NCBI GenBank assembly: GCA_021325515.1
Contig: JAJPHC010000057.1
Coordinates: 124,001 to 188,000, forward strand
Source of the DNA: Acidobacteriota bacterium
GTDB taxonomy: Bacteria; Acidobacteriota; Thermoanaerobaculia; Gp7-AA8
Length of the DNA: 64,000 nt
Direction: 5' to 3'
This document shows, piece after piece, positions 2,415 through 7,629 of the stretch. Each line of letters opens with the position of its first letter. Within the stretch, counting starts at the first letter, position 1. Both the position numbers and the translations under genes were made by a program. Under the pieces are notes generated by a model, which worked only from the letters and a program-made list of their open reading frames with translations, searched no databases and had not been told where the DNA came from.

Positions 2415-2654
2415 ATGGATTCCCGAGAGATGATTCGGAACTTCCTCCTCGCGCGCTTCCGCTCGAAGATCCGCGGGGGCGCGCTTGCGTTTGATGCTCC
2501 GCTGATCTCCAGCGGTGTGATCGACTCGTTTGGTGTCCTCGAGGTGATGGCGTTTCTCGAGGATACGTTCGCGATCACCATCGATCCCAACGCGCACGAG
2601 CCGGCGGAATTCGAGACCGTCGACAGCATCGCTGCGCTGGTCGTCCGGCCGTGA
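2415..2654 (+). CDS. Acyl carrier protein
   Basis: A 79-residue protein with the ACP signature GVIDSFG; Ser38 is the predicted 4'-phosphopantetheine attachment site, with Phe replacing the usual Leu after it. The length and the helix pattern (VLEVMAFLEDTF after the serine) fit a stand-alone carrier such as DltC. The start ATG at 2415 has no clear ribosome binding site; the next ATG is at 2430. It is the first gene of a five-gene operon, and its TGA overlaps the GTG of the next gene in GTGA. In this context it probably carries the acyl group that the MBOAT protein transfers across the membrane. No phosphopantetheinyl transferase lies in the window. Confidence 0.88.
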   Translation: MDSREMIRNFLLARFRSKIRGGALAFDAPLISSGVIDSFGVLEVMAFLEDTFAITIDPNAHEPAEFETVDSIAALVVRP

Positions 2655-3478
2655 GCGCGCCGGCCTGGGAGTGCGATCTCGTCCTCGGGCTTCCTCACAC
2701 GAGCCATCGCGGGTTCTCCGAGCATCACCTCCTGAAATTCGCGGGGCACTTCCAATGGAATGCGATTGCGGCTGCGGCAGGGCTGCCGCTGTCTTCACTG
2801 CGCACCACGGCGGGAGCCGAGGTGTATGCGAGCTTCTATTACATCGAAGTGATCGTGCCCGATGACGCGCCGCTCGAGTCGTTCCGGCTCGATGACACGG
2901 TGCACTTCGCGATCTCGCTGCGCGCTTTCAAGAACATCGCGATCGAAGGGCGCGTTGCAGTTTCGCGCGGAGTCGCGATTCACTTCGCCAACATCTTCAT
3001 CACTCCGGAAAAGGGCAACAGCCGCCTGCGCGTCGCACCGCCGGCGCAGGCCGATTTCTCCTCGCTGCCGCTGCTGCCGAACGACGAGAATCCGTTTCAG
3101 CTCACGCGTGCCGCGGAGGAGAGCGGAGTGCTGGACGTGATCGGCGATGGATGGGAGCGCGCCGGCAGCTTCGATCACCGCTATGCGATCGACGCCGACC
3201 GCGACACGAATGGCGCGGGGCTGGTCTACTTCGCGAACTACATCGCGTTCATGGATACGGCGGAGCGGCTCGCACTGCAATCGCTGGGAATCGATGCGCC
3301 GATGCGCTCGCTCCGCCGGCGCCGCATCGCCTACTACGGAAACGCCGAGGTTTCCGACACGATCACGGTGCACGTCGAGGTGTTCCGGAGGGAAGCGAGC
3401 CTCGCGTTTCGCTATCGCATCACCCGCGATGAAGATGGCGCGATGATCGCCCTGTCGGAGGCGATCAAGGCGCGATGA
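2651..3478 (+). CDS. LnmK-like double-hotdog acyltransferase/decarboxylase
   Basis: A 275-residue protein starting at GTG 2651. The N-terminal half, with GLPHTSHRGFSEHHLLKFAG (13-32) and EVYASFYYIEV (57-67), resembles the N-terminal hotdog of LnmK and of the Pnap_2097 biosynthetic family. The C-terminal half contains YFANYIAFMDTAE (193-205), typical of a thioesterase-like hotdog. LnmK of leinamycin biosynthesis takes methylmalonyl-CoA, acylates itself on a tyrosine, decarboxylates it and passes propionyl to an ACP. Tyr59, Tyr63 and Tyr64 are candidates for that residue here; I cannot align them with certainty. Four-base overlaps on both sides with the ACP and SGNH genes suggest it loads the adjacent ACP. 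The substrate is inferred. Confidence 0.68.
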   Translation: MSAPAWECDLVLGLPHTSHRGFSEHHLLKFAGHFQWNAIAAAAGLPLSSLRTTAGAEVYASFYYIEVIVPDDAPLESFRLDDTVHFAISLRAFKNIAIEGRVAVSRGVAIHFANIFITPEKGNSRLRVAPPAQADFSSLPLLPNDENPFQLTRAAEESGVLDVIGDGWERAGSFDHRYAIDADRDTNGAGLVYFANYIAFMDTAERLALQSLGIDAPMRSLRRRRIAYYGNAEVSDTITVHVEVFRREASLAFRYRITRDEDGAMIALSEAIKAR

Positions 3479-4437
3479 ACCGTCACGCGCGGCGGTTGCT
3501 GCTCGTCGTACTCTGGCTCGTGGTGGCCGACGTCTTCGTGCCGCCGCTGCTGCAGCGCGCGGAGCATGCGCGCTACGAGCGGGGAGGAGCGTTCCGCTTC
3601 GAGAATTCGGATCTCTTCGCGCTCGGGCCAATGGTTCGGTATCTCCGCGAGCATCCGCACGGCGATCGCCCGCGCGCCGTCTTCCTCGGCAACTCCGTCG
3701 TCTTCGGCTACGGGATCGATGCACGCGAGGCGCTGCCGGCGCAGTTCGAGCGTTTCGCGCGCGGGCGCCGCGTCTTCAATGCTGCAGTGAATGGTCAGGA
3801 GATGGGCGACAGCCTGTTGGCCGGCAAGGCGATCATCGACTCGGTCGACACACTCTTCGTGCAGGTGATTCCGCACCACGACGCGGCACGCCCCATCCTC
3901 GGCAAGCTGCTGCCGGTGAGCAGCGAGGATGCGCAGCGCTACGGCCTCGAGCAGTTCGATCCGATCGAAGCGCGGTTGCGCTCGATCCTCGGCCGCGTGT
4001 GGCGTCTCTATGCCTCGAACGACCGGCTGCAGGCGGCGTGGTTCGGAACGTCGACGCGCCAGTTTCTCTATCTGCACAAGCGCAATTGGATCGTGAGGCG
4101 TGCGGCGCCGCCGCCGATCTCGCCCCACATCTCGCCGGTGAACCTCGTCTCGCCGCGCAATGGAACCGGCGATCCGACGTCGATCTCGCAGTCCATGGTG
4201 GCGCTGGCGGACGTCGCGGCGGCGCACCGGAAGCGCGTCGTCTTTCTGCATTTCCAGCGCGCGGGCGACGCACTCGATCCGAACGTCGCGGGTGCATTCA
4301 ATGCGCGATACGCGCCGCATGCGGAGCTGGTGATCGTCGACGTGCCGCCTGCGCTCTATTCCGACCGGCAGCACCTGACGCCGGATGGCGCCGCCTCGGT
4401 CGCGGCGGCGCTCGCGGCGCATGAGGGACTGCAATGA
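3475..4437 (+). CDS. Membrane-anchored SGNH-hydrolase-like protein (DltD/AlgJ-like role)
   Basis: A 320-residue protein with one N-terminal hydrophobic segment (about 7-26) and a large domain predicted to face outwards. SGNH-type features are FLGNSVVFGYG with Ser74 as the likely nucleophile (GNS in place of GDS), NAAVNGQ around 102-108, and DRQH at 297-300, the usual DxxH block. In Dlt and alginate acetylation systems, proteins of this fold and topology take the acyl group from the MBOAT step and place it on the polymer. ATG 3475 overlaps the previous stop in ATGA and the gene overlaps the MBOAT gene in the same way, which strongly supports a shared task. A plain esterase is the alternative. 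Confidence 0.8.
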   Translation: MNRHARRLLLVVLWLVVADVFVPPLLQRAEHARYERGGAFRFENSDLFALGPMVRYLREHPHGDRPRAVFLGNSVVFGYGIDAREALPAQFERFARGRRVFNAAVNGQEMGDSLLAGKAIIDSVDTLFVQVIPHHDAARPILGKLLPVSSEDAQRYGLEQFDPIEARLRSILGRVWRLYASNDRLQAAWFGTSTRQFLYLHKRNWIVRRAAPPPISPHISPVNLVSPRNGTGDPTSISQSMVALADVAAAHRKRVVFLHFQRAGDALDPNVAGAFNARYAPHAELVIVDVPPALYSDRQHLTPDGAASVAAALAAHEGLQ

Positions 4438-5537
4438 TCTTCACCGAATTGCGGTTCGTGCTGCTCTTCGCCGGCTGCTGGATCTCGTTCTTCGCAGTGC
4501 CGAGGAAGATGCGGATGGCGGTGCTGGCGGCGTGGGGAATGACGTTCTATGCGCTGTTCGCCGGATGGTTCCTCGCGGTCGTGCTGGCGTTGACGCTGGC
4601 GGCGCTCTACGTCGTGCCGCTGGCCGCGGGGCTCGCGATCGTGGGCGTTCTCGTTTACGTCAAGCTGTCGCCGGCGATCGTTCCGCTCGGCATTTCGTAT
4701 CTGGCGTTCGAGCTGCTGCACGTCGCGATCGAGAGGAAGCGAGGCAGGCTGCGCGAGCTCTCGCTGCCGAAGATGCTGGCCTTCGCCTTCTTCATGCCGG
4801 CGCGCGCGGCGGGGCCGATCAAGCGCTTCGCTCCTTTCGTCGCGGCGGTCGAAGCGGCGGAACGGTCGGCGGAGAACGTCTACGGCGGACTGCTGCGCGT
4901 GCTCATCGGCCTGGCGAAGAAGTTCGTGATCGCCGACCTCCTCGCGCTGACCGTGGAGGAATCGCGCTACGTCGATTCGATGCGCCACGCGTGGGTGATC
5001 GTGATCGCGTTCTCGTTTCGCATCTTCTTCGACTTCAGCGCCTACTCGGACATCGCGATCGGCTTCGCGCAGATGCTCGGCATCACGCTGCCGGAGAATT
5101 TCAACTGGCCGTATCTCGCGGCGAACATCCGCGAGTTCTGGGAGCGGTGGCACATCACGTTGTCGCAGTGGGTGCGCGATTACGTGTTCACGCCGTGCGG
5201 GCGGCTGCTCTTCCGCACGCCGCTGCGGCCGTATCCGGCGGTCATCGCGACGATCAGCTATCTGATCACGTTCGCGATCGTCGGTGCGTGGCACGGTCTG
5301 ACGCCTGCGTTCGTGTTGTGGGGCGTCTATCACGGCGTGCTGCTCTCCGCGTATCACGTGGTGAGCATCAAGATGCCGGCCGCGATCACCGATCGGGCGT
5401 GGTATCACGGCCGGCCGATGCGGTTCGTCGGCATGGCGTCGACGTTTCTCTTCGTCACGATCGGCTGGGTGCCCTTCTTCCTGCCGATGACGAAGGCGAT
5501 GACGTTCTGGATGCTGATGTTCGGAGTGAGACGATGA
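4434..5537 (+). CDS. MBOAT-family membrane acyltransferase (DltB/AlgI-like)
   Basis: A 367-residue polytopic membrane protein. The diagnostic MBOAT block is FSAYSDIAIGFAQMLGI followed by NFNWPYLAANIREFWERWH, with conserved His240, and the second block GAWHGLTPAFVLWG carries the invariant His287. Known members (DltB, AlgI, PatA) form a pore through which acyl groups move from a cytoplasmic thioester donor to the outside. It lacks about 30-40 N-terminal residues compared with DltB-type proteins, but both histidine blocks are intact. The start overlaps the SGNH stop in ATGA, and its TGA overlaps the start of the 36-residue microprotein. The likely donor is the ACP encoded at the head of the operon. 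Confidence 0.92.
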   Translation: MIFTELRFVLLFAGCWISFFAVPRKMRMAVLAAWGMTFYALFAGWFLAVVLALTLAALYVVPLAAGLAIVGVLVYVKLSPAIVPLGISYLAFELLHVAIERKRGRLRELSLPKMLAFAFFMPARAAGPIKRFAPFVAAVEAAERSAENVYGGLLRVLIGLAKKFVIADLLALTVEESRYVDSMRHAWVIVIAFSFRIFFDFSAYSDIAIGFAQMLGITLPENFNWPYLAANIREFWERWHITLSQWVRDYVFTPCGRLLFRTPLRPYPAVIATISYLITFAIVGAWHGLTPAFVLWGVYHGVLLSAYHVVSIKMPAAITDRAWYHGRPMRFVGMASTFLFVTIGWVPFFLPMTKAMTFWMLMFGVRR

Positions 5538-5644
5538 AGGCTCTGCTGCGGGATGTGCTCCTCTCGCTGGCGATCGCGGCGCTGATCGTCGCGCTGTTTC
5601 TCTTCGCGTCGTTCGACTCGACGTTCATCTACCGCGGCTTCTGA
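5534..5644 (+). CDS. DltX-like single-pass microprotein with C-terminal FIYRGF
   Basis: A 36-residue open frame whose ATG overlaps the MBOAT stop in ATGA. It has one hydrophobic helix (about residues 8-25) followed by a short tail ending FDSTFIYRGF, with the stop directly after it. DltX of Gram-positive dlt operons is likewise a small single-pass protein ending in an aromatic FIY-type motif, and its C-terminal tyrosine is reported to accept the acyl group from DltB before DltD passes it to the polymer. Tyr33 is the equivalent here. Such short genes are usually missed in annotation. The position, topology and tail together make this call fairly strong, although the sequence outside the tail is generic. 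Confidence 0.78.
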   Translation: MKALLRDVLLSLAIAALIVALFLFASFDSTFIYRGF

Positions 5645-5658
5645 GGTTGCGGCGCGCT

Positions 5659-6030
5659 TCAGATCAAGCCTGTGCTGCGCATCGAACGGCCGAGAAGATA
5701 GTTCAGCGCGATCGCGACGCCGGTGCGGTGCGGCATCGTGGCCACCATCGGCGCCGCCAGCAGCGCGAGAAACAGCACGCACTGCGCGAACCCGTGGGGC
5801 CGGAATCCGAGGAAGAGCGCGGCGATGCCGAAGAGGAGCGGGATGCGATCGGTGAGGACGATGAACATCCAGGCGTCGCCCTGATTCGGCTGGAATTCGA
5901 GGGCGCACGATGAGCAGCGCTCGTGCGCGGCAAGCCAGTATCGGAAGAGCCGTCCTTCACCACATCGCGGGCAACGGCGGCGAAATCCGCGGACGATGGC
6001 CGTGCGAAAGGTCGGTGTCACGAGTTGCAC
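5659..6030 (-). CDS. DUF983-family membrane protein
   Basis: About 123 residues with a zinc-ribbon-like N terminus, RCPRCGEGRLF, and a second pair CSSC about 20 residues later, followed by NQGDAWMFIVLTDRIP and two hydrophobic segments. This is the DUF983 pattern, whose biochemical role is unknown. The start is uncertain: I use the GTG ending at 6030; a second GTG lies at 6021. A GGAGG stretch occurs further upstream, but no start codon lies at a fitting distance from it. It converges on the acylation operon with 14 bases between the stops and diverges from the glycosyltransferase gene. Confidence 0.72.
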   Translation of the reverse strand: MQLVTPTFRTAIVRGFRRRCPRCGEGRLFRYWLAAHERCSSCALEFQPNQGDAWMFIVLTDRIPLLFGIAALFLGFRPHGFAQCVLFLALLAAPMVATMPHRTGVAIALNYLLGRSMRSTGLI

Positions 6031-6081
6031 AACCGGTGCTGCGGCGCGAGCGATTCCTCCACTATCATCCGCACGGTAATC

Positions 6082-7629
6082 GTGGCCAAAGCAAGACGCA
6101 CTCAACAACAGATACGTTCCGACGATCCCGCGGGCTGGTGGCGCGACCCGGTCGCGTGGGTGATCACCGCCCTCGCCGCTCTTCTCCTGCTCGTCAACCT
6201 CGGCGGGCGCGCGCTTTGGGAGGACGAGGCCGAGACCGCACTTCTCGGCCGCAGCATCCTCGCGCATGGAAAGCCGGTCGCGAGCAACGGCATCAATGTG
6301 ATCTCCCAGGAGGCGGGACGCGAATTCGGTTCCGACTACGTCTGGCGATGGTCGCCGTGGGTTCAGTTCTATCTCGGCGCGGCAGGGTTGAAGATGTTCG
6401 GCGATTCGGCGCTCGGTGCGCGACTGCCGTTCGCGCTGCTCGCGATCCCAGTCATTCCGCTGGTCTATCTGATCGGACGCCGCGCGTTTGGCTCGATTCT
6501 CGTCGCCAGACTCGCCGCGCTCGCGCTCGCGACGTCGCCCTGGTTCCTGTTGCAGTCGCGTCAGGCCCGATGGGAAGCGCCGGCGTATCTCCTCACCTGC
6601 ATCGTGCTGCTCGCGGTCTTCGAGATGGAGCGGTCGATCGCCTGGCCGGTGGTGATCGCGGCAGCCGGCGCCGCACTTTTCTACACAAACTACTTTGTCG
6701 CGGTCTGTCTGCTCGTTTCGATCGCGGCCGCTTCGCCGATGCTGCGTCGCGATCGCGATTTCCTCATCAGGCTCGCCTGTGGGCTCGCCGGCGCTGCGGC
6801 GCTGTCGATTCCCGGCGTGATCTTCTTCCACGTTCTCGGCAAGACGGGCGGCGGACAACTGAGCGCGCTCAAGCAGTTCTGGCTGTATGCGGTGCAGTTC
6901 GTGACGTTCCTCGCGCCGCTGCCGCTCGTCATCATCGCGTTGTTCAACGACAGGCGGCCGGCGACGCGCTTTGTGCTGGCGACGGTGACGGCGCTGTGCA
7001 TCATCCTCGCGTTCGCGCCGTGGAGCATGTTCCGCTATCTCACGATCGCGTTTCCGATCGCGGCGCTCGTGTCGGGCGTTGCGCTCGCGTGGCTGATGGC
7101 GCGGAGCAGGGTGGCGGGATGGATCGGAGTCGCGCTGCTCGTCTGCACATCGATCCTGCATCAACTGCCGCTGGGCTACATGCAGGTCGAGGGTACGGAG
7201 ATCGCGCAGCCGTCGATCTCACCGATCGCGTCGTACGTGCAGGAGATGATTTCGCCGCCGCGCGATGCGGATGTTGCGGTCGTTGAGTATCTGCGCGCGC
7301 ATGCTTCACCGGGCGATACCGTGCTGGCATCGTATGGCGATCTGCTGCTGCAGTTCTACACGCGGCTGCATGTCACCGGCGGGCTGGAGGGACACCTGCC
7401 GCCGCCTTCCGATCCCGAGTGGATCGTTCTGCGTCCGTACTATGTGAGCCCCGAGCCGGGGAAGGATTTCGAGCTGCTGAAGGCGATGGACCGCACGATC
7501 GACTTGCGGCAATACGACGTCGCGACGACGGTCCCCGATCCGATCCTGAGCGGCAATCCCGACCCGATGTTCCACCTCTTCCGCGAGGACCCAACCGCCA
7601 AGCCCCTCCGCCTGCTCCGCCACCGTTAA
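6082..7629 (+). CDS. GT39/ArnT-like integral membrane glycosyltransferase
   Basis: A 515-residue protein with about eleven hydrophobic segments. After the first transmembrane helix it carries GGRALWEDEAETALLGRSI, the acidic first loop that holds the catalytic Asp/Glu in the dolichyl-phosphate-mannose and ArnT family, followed by WRWSPWVQFYL, also typical. Members transfer sugars from polyprenyl-phosphate donors to proteins or lipid A on the outer face of the membrane. The start is GTG 6082 (product begins VAKARRTQQ); no clear ribosome binding site is visible. The stop codon TAA lies inside the first copy of a palindromic repeat. Donor and acceptor cannot be told from sequence. Confidence 0.85.
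   Translation: MAKARRTQQQIRSDDPAGWWRDPVAWVITALAALLLLVNLGGRALWEDEAETALLGRSILAHGKPVASNGINVISQEAGREFGSDYVWRWSPWVQFYLGAAGLKMFGDSALGARLPFALLAIPVIPLVYLIGRRAFGSILVARLAALALATSPWFLLQSRQARWEAPAYLLTCIVLLAVFEMERSIAWPVVIAAAGAALFYTNYFVAVCLLVSIAAASPMLRRDRDFLIRLACGLAGAAALSIPGVIFFHVLGKTGGGQLSALKQFWLYAVQFVTFLAPLPLVIIALFNDRRPATRFVLATVTALCIILAFAPWSMFRYLTIAFPIAALVSGVALAWLMARSRVAGWIGVALLVCTSILHQLPLGYMQVEGTEIAQPSISPIASYVQEMISPPRDADVAVVEYLRAHASPGDTVLASYGDLLLQFYTRLHVTGGLEGHLPPPSDPEWIVLRPYYVSPEPGKDFELLKAMDRTIDLRQYDVATTVPDPILSGNPDPMFHLFREDPTAKPLRLLRHR

Follow-up and report, generated by a model that had tools for sequence, protein, structure and literature searches.

We analysed a 64-kb window of a 5.4-Mb genome from the phylum Acidobacteriota (contig 13, positions 124001-188000; positions given without a contig or locus label are those of the window). 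The window contains a five-gene operon at 2415-5644. In our judgement, this operon probably specifies a carrier-dependent MBOAT/SGNH pathway by which a short acyl group, propionyl being the most likely, is attached in ester linkage to a polymer or glycolipid outside the cytoplasm. A first-pass annotation had described five coding sequences here, joined by four 4-base overlaps and resembling a Dlt operon, and all of these open reading frames were recovered at their places. They lie head to tail on the + strand as follows:

2415-2654, + strand: discrete acyl carrier protein (ACP), 79 aa; phosphopantetheine Ser38 within IDSFG
2651-3478, + strand: LnmK-family bifunctional acyltransferase/decarboxylase-like loader, 275 aa; GTG start
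3475-4437, + strand: SGNH acyltransferase-like protein, membrane-anchored, 320 aa; transmembrane helix at residues 4-29, putative nucleophile Ser74 (GNS), D297-x-x-H300
4434-5537, + strand: short DltB-type MBOAT, 367 aa; His240 and His287; no C-terminal shuttle motif
5534-5644, + strand: DltX-like membrane microprotein, 36 aa; one transmembrane segment; C-terminal FIYRGF with putative acyl-shuttle Tyr33

All four junctions are stop/start overlaps of four bases (GTGA, ATGA, ATGA and ATGA), suggestive of translational coupling. In the three long genes, the reading frames display the codon-position G+C pattern typical of coding sequence.

A putative loader of the LnmK family

LnmK converts methylmalonyl-CoA to propionyl-ACP, and assignment of the second gene product to this family was the central proposal of the first-pass annotation. 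The protein scored 150.4 bits against the NCBIfam model for LnmK (TIGR04098; residues 11-267), well over the cut-off of 100, and LnmK structures were its top phmmer matches. The related Pnap_2097 model (TIGR04099) gave 109.2 bits, short of its cut-off of 125, and a YbgC thioesterase model gave 32 bits. A structure model built on 15 sequences had a mean predicted local distance difference test score (pLDDT) of 91. When this model was searched with Foldseek, seven LnmK entries were returned first (E about 1e-21) and the next match followed at 7e-12. VIA-align superposed the model on LnmK with a Z score of 32.0 and a root-mean-square deviation of 2.0 over 268 aligned residues, compared with a Z score of 22.7 for the nearest acyl-ACP thioesterase. 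Tyr59 of the loader aligned with residue 62 of LnmK chain 6x7l, the active-site and putatively catalytic tyrosine. Together with F62, N187, Y193, D202 and N231, Tyr59 is invariant in 17 relatives. Score, fold and the conserved tyrosine thus rule out a plain thioesterase, the identity that would have undone the LnmK-like call.

In a maximum-likelihood tree the window loader grouped with ACP-LnmK proteins of Acidobacteriota and Verrucomicrobiota (80/83). This group joined LnmK of Streptomyces and Amycolatopsis at 99/99, with the Pnap_2097 proteins on the opposite side, so that membership of the Pnap_2097 family is ruled out by tree placement as well as by score. The branch leading to the window loader is long (1.56), and its exact position is therefore less certain than its side. 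Taken together, these results support placement in the LnmK family in every feature that could be tested, and transfer and decarboxylation of methylmalonyl are predicted from that membership. Methylmalonyl-CoA mutase makes the (2R) isomer of methylmalonyl-CoA, and two mutase genes are present elsewhere in the window genome. According to the title of a 2020 paper by Lohman and Shen, cited in PMC8666670, LnmK is specific for (2R)-methylmalonyl-CoA.

Carrier, shuttle and acyltransferase proteins

The ACP resembles free-standing type II carrier proteins. Its best matches in the PDB were type II carriers (E 2.6e-9) with DltC at only 16 bits, and its D37-S38 pair is invariant in nine aligned carriers. 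Against the Pfam PP-binding model it scored 19.4 bits, slightly under the cut-off of 20.8, and against the DltC equivalog (PRK05087) it scored 22.9 bits where 68 is required.

The remaining parts that the annotation had named, an MBOAT, a DltX-like microprotein and a membrane-anchored SGNH protein, were each supported. The fourth gene product scored 93 bits against Pfam MBOAT (cut-off 27) and aligned with the solved DltB in the PDB at E 7.7e-37, His240 and His287 falling on DltB His289 and His336. Its 211 bits against the DltB equivalog (TIGR04091) are below the cut-off of 375, and Trp296 occupies the position of DltB Tyr345. His289, His336 and Tyr345 have been called key residues of DltB (PMC11035591). 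A second MBOAT of the long type is encoded elsewhere in the genome (C51:245977-246855, − strand, 483-aa frame).

In the Dlt relay, DltB moves the acyl group from the carrier protein to a tyrosine of DltX, from which it is handed on to a serine of DltD, and PatA performs the same transfer using its own tail and acetyl-CoA (PMC12148441). The window MBOAT stops before the two extra helices that bear the FXYXXF tail in PatA-type MBOATs and has no fused tail; the shuttle motif is supplied by the microprotein (MKALLRDVLLSLAIAALIVALFLFASFDSTFIYRGF), whose C-terminal FIYRGF, with Tyr33, fits the FXYXXF pattern (PMC12148441). Among 730 frames examined across the window, that of the microprotein was the only one of at least 20 aa to end in FxYxxF; the scan lists it under an upstream in-frame start, at 4385-5644.

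The SGNH protein has a single N-terminal transmembrane helix by hydropathy, invariant G72, S74 and H300, and the D297-x-x-H300 pair. The best folds for its model were SGNH/GDSL hydrolases (Z about 14-15; low-confidence model, pLDDT 51). No Pfam or NCBIfam family was matched above cut-off, and no DltD model appeared among the matches at E values up to 1, so that the assignment draws on motifs and fold. Chance is no serious explanation for the operon as a whole, since the LnmK-like protein passes a curated cut-off, the MBOAT matches DltB as given above and the microprotein frame is the only one of its kind.

The annotation had further noted that the ligase DltA is missing from the operon. The absence extends to the entire window genome, in which the best candidate reached 91.6 bits against a cut-off of 559.85, ruling out a DltA encoded elsewhere in it.

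Two neighbouring genes were recorded. A DUF983 gene (5659-6003, − strand) is convergent with the microprotein gene; in Methylocystis and Tabrizicola, DUF983 genes also lie directly 3′ of LnmK-related Pnap_2097 genes, within Nit1C-type clusters; this may be coincidence. Downstream, on the same strand as the operon, a PMT_2 family membrane glycosyltransferase gene (5923-7629, + strand) could encode an enzyme acting on the same surface material. No polyketide genes were recognised near the operon.

Related loci and distribution

Genome contigs were scanned with an LnmK alignment and followed up by further searches; most of the related loci come from metagenome-assembled genomes. Genes for an MBOAT, an SGNH protein, an ACP::LnmK fusion and methylmalonyl-CoA mutase were found together in three Verrucomicrobiota genomes (L026, L036 and L065). 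The order in L036 is MBOAT (474 aa, tail FVYFRF), SGNH protein, ACP::LnmK, a fragment resembling the mutase small subunit (MutA-like), methylmalonyl-CoA mutase and a MeaB-like GTPase. L065 has the same type of order with the small-subunit fragment fused to the mutase, and L026, a Prosthecobacter, follows it until the contig ends within the mutase. The mutases of L036 and L065, at 1082 and 1116 bits, clear the equivalog cut-off of 876, and the MeaB-like GTPase scored 319 bits, slightly under its cut-off of 329. A four-base overlap joins the ACP::LnmK gene to the next one, that of the mutase fragment, in L036 and L065. As a separate observation, the small-subunit fragment paired with the mutase is short rather than full (L036 6960-7754; L065 8997-11783).

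The presence of the mutase, the supplier of LnmK's known substrate, beside LnmK, MBOAT and SGNH genes is the strongest argument for propionyl. Any MBOAT at all was found in 95 of the 297 genomes of the Acidobacteriota sample; MBOAT genes are thus not common enough for their association with LnmK to be accidental. One further Verrucomicrobiota match (G872) was set aside as a Pnap_2097-like gene without an MBOAT on a contig that looks foreign. Five plasmid or Streptomyces LnmK relatives whose annotated neighbours were examined were likewise rejected as parallels: their clusters are of Nit1C, polyketide or similar metabolic type, and in no case were MBOAT/SGNH genes adjacent.

Within Acidobacteriota, ACP-LnmK fusions adjoin WcaF-like hexapeptide acyltransferases in polysaccharide clusters (L017 and L027/L067). 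At another locus (L023 4984-7011) a hexapeptide acyltransferase, an ACP and an LnmK domain are joined in a single 675-aa protein, whose gene adjoins an SGNH gene. A more distant ACP-LnmK fusion (L066 8117-9966, − strand) sits beside a GNAT-like gene and an aminotransferase gene in a nucleotide-sugar cluster, where it perhaps serves N-acylation of an amino sugar. Because ACP-LnmK occurs in such varied envelope loci, acyltransferases of several kinds seem to be supplied by the same loaded carrier.

Four other Acidobacteriota encode short DltB-like MBOATs with a nearby separate microprotein ending in FLYVDF, FIYQGF, FVYVNF or FIYDSF:

L101, 4734-7255: short MBOAT and FxYxxF microprotein; SGNH-like gene adjoining
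L102, 6716-8048: short MBOAT and FxYxxF microprotein
L103, 5724-8310: short MBOAT and FxYxxF microprotein; SGNH-like gene adjoining
L104, 6416-8894: short MBOAT and FxYxxF microprotein

By their sequences these are candidate DltX-type systems outside Dlt. A fifth locus in the phylum (L105 5409-10569, − strand) encodes an SGNH-like protein, an MBOAT with a fused FLYFQF tail, an ACP and an AMP-binding protein resembling fatty-acyl-AMP ligases, and is a putative ligase-loaded, carrier-dependent counterpart of the window operon. These five loci indicate that carrier-dependent and microprotein-dependent systems extend more widely than Dlt. The window operon looks like their chassis with the ligase exchanged for LnmK, a swap of loader made plausible by the existence of the ligase-loaded counterpart in the same phylum.

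The operon itself is rare. Neither an LnmK relative nor the operon was found in any of the 60 nearest genomes, and 148 other members of the class contained neither the operon nor a full-length relative, the short partial matches covering the C-terminal hotdog half only. A convincing relative was present in only two of 296 other genomes of the phylum sample. The operon was probably acquired horizontally or has often been lost. The gene order that the annotation expected in related genomes is accordingly absent from near relatives, while the functional set does recur, with a mutase, in the three Verrucomicrobiota genomes.

Just upstream of the operon, at 2345-2372, lies a 28-bp exact copy of the 3′ end of tRNA-Gly(CCC). 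Two further copies are present in the genome (C13:121558-121585 and 122971-122998), the leftmost of which belongs to the intact tRNA gene, 4.8 kb upstream. The repeats look like attachment sites of one or two tRNA-inserted elements to the left of the operon and do not flank it. Placement of the operon within a tRNA-borne island is thus unsupported, attachment-like repeats occurring only on its left.

Predicted pathway, alternatives and known systems

The pathway that we propose would begin with the LnmK-like enzyme taking the (2R)-methylmalonyl group from methylmalonyl-CoA, decarboxylating it and leaving propionyl on the ACP, as the family suggests. It would thereby stand in for the ATP-using ligase DltA; no such ligase would be needed because the acyl group is already activated as a CoA ester. 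By analogy with Dlt and PatAB, the MBOAT would then take up the acyl group from the arm of the ACP at the cytoplasmic face and deliver it to Tyr33 of the microprotein at the external face. Ser74 in the anchored SGNH protein would next receive it from acylated Tyr33, and this protein may finally pass it on to a surface polymer, at a hydroxyl group. We infer the identity of the acyl group, the polymer endpoint and the acceptor.

Several observations weigh against this proposal. The window operon has no mutase, and its LnmK is only about 30% identical to those of Verrucomicrobiota and has a long, moderately supported branch (80/83), so that the substrate of the window loader could have changed. 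The missing mutase and this low identity make the acyl group the main doubt. The SGNH protein matches no family above cut-off, and the structure predicted for it is poor (pLDDT 51); the window-type arrangement of a separate ACP and LnmK with a microprotein was found in one genome only; the Verrucomicrobiota MBOATs are tail-fused members of the long AlgI/PatA class, whose substrate in other systems is acyl-CoA; and the operon contains no polymer-synthesis gene.

The doubt about the acyl group gives rise to the alternative that the same pathway handles another one, with malonyl-CoA converted to acetyl-ACP or another branched acyl-CoA used, and the surface ester being acetyl or something else. 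Acetyl is the usual envelope ester, and Proteobacteria have a known malonyl-ACP decarboxylase (PMC8666670); the missing mutase and the long branch of the window LnmK point the same way. However, a decarboxylating loader would be wasteful for acetyl because acetyl-CoA is abundant and is used directly by MBOATs such as PatA (PMC12148441), and there are relatives on the window loader's side of the tree whose operons include methylmalonyl-CoA mutase. We consider this alternative unlikely, though deserving of some weight. Decarboxylation is unreadable from sequence, and the double-hotdog fold is common to acyl-ACP thioesterases (Z about 22), so the LnmK-like protein might instead transfer its substrate unchanged, or edit the carrier as a thioesterase, with methylmalonyl or an otherwise-loaded group reaching the surface. 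This appears quite improbable: the family's conserved residues are retained, LnmK is the closest fold by 9 Z units, and there is neither a second loader in the operon nor a DltA in the genome.

We give very little credence to ordinary D-alanylation by a Dlt system whose ligase lies elsewhere and in which the LnmK-like gene is incidental. While the MBOAT is nearest to DltB and both a carrier protein and a DltX-like microprotein are present, the best DltA candidate falls far short, the ACP and MBOAT score below the cut-offs for DltC and DltB, DltB Tyr345 is replaced by tryptophan, and the LnmK gene is coupled on both sides. Similarly far-fetched is a division of the operon into an ACP-LnmK pair serving a small-molecule, polyketide-type pathway and a separate neighbouring MBOAT/SGNH unit. 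Characterised LnmK proteins do act in polyketide clusters, and one Streptomyces LnmK gene that was examined lies in such a cluster, but the window operon has no recognised polyketide genes nearby, its 4-base overlaps run through all five genes, and the same association recurs in Verrucomicrobiota.

Propionylation of a surface polymer or glycolipid thus remains the preferred reading of the window operon. The case is evenly poised for the broader proposal that ligase-free, carrier-dependent surface propionylation exists in at least two phyla, running from methylmalonyl-CoA through LnmK/ACP to an MBOAT, a tyrosine shuttle and SGNH export; as part of it, a dedicated mutase would make methylmalonyl-CoA from succinyl-CoA in Verrucomicrobiota.

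No description of this gene set was found in the open-access papers searched, most subscription papers lying outside the search, and the view that no such system has been described holds within that scope. To our knowledge, the LnmK family has been characterised only in secondary metabolism. If the proposed pathway is correct, the family moves from polyketide chemistry to cell-envelope biology, the carrier is loaded by decarboxylation of a CoA ester rather than by ATP-driven ligation, and activation for an envelope modification is drawn from central metabolism. Propionylated surface polymers would then be predicted in Acidobacteriota and Verrucomicrobiota, two abundant and little-studied phyla, and the operon would provide a testable system for what sets acyl specificity in MBOAT/SGNH export. 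A 2025 account describes MBOAT/SGNH pathways other than Dlt as having neither carrier protein nor DltX-like microprotein (PMC12148441); the window operon has both, in a diderm.

Comparison with known systems places the operon between several of them. The Pnap_2097 family (TIGR04099) is a homologous double-hotdog family, but a 99/99 branch separates it from the window loader, and its genes occur in Nit1C-type clusters. The LnmK/LnmL pair of leinamycin and related pathways (PDB 4hzo, 6x7l) has in common with the window a discrete ACP and a double-hotdog acyltransferase/decarboxylase of the same fold with the Tyr62 equivalent, whereas the window pair lies outside a polyketide cluster and its predicted product would go to MBOAT/SGNH proteins rather than to an enzyme resembling HMG-CoA synthase. 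The Verrucomicrobiota operons contain the same functional set of MBOAT, SGNH, ACP and LnmK, but place the shuttle tail on the MBOAT, fuse the ACP to LnmK, add a mutase and a MeaB-like GTPase, and follow a different order. Acetylation systems of the PatA/PatB and AlgI/AlgX type share the MBOAT histidine, the aromatic tyrosine shuttle motif and an SGNH acyl acceptor, yet use acyl-CoA directly, have no carrier protein and bear the shuttle motif on the MBOAT itself (PMC12148441).

The Dlt system (DltXABCD), which D-alanylates teichoic acids in the cell wall of Gram-positive bacteria, resembles the operon in its carrier protein, its DltB-type MBOAT with both active-site histidines, its separate FXYXXF microprotein and its membrane-anchored SGNH partner. 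Unlike Dlt, the window operon has an LnmK-like loader in place of DltA, its ACP, MBOAT and SGNH protein are below or without Dlt family cut-offs, and its host is a diderm in which teichoic acid is not expected. Because the ligase is missing and the equivalog cut-offs are not reached, the operon falls outside Dlt as strictly defined. We regard it as a variant of carrier-dependent MBOAT/SGNH acylation that, downstream of the carrier, very probably works like Dlt.

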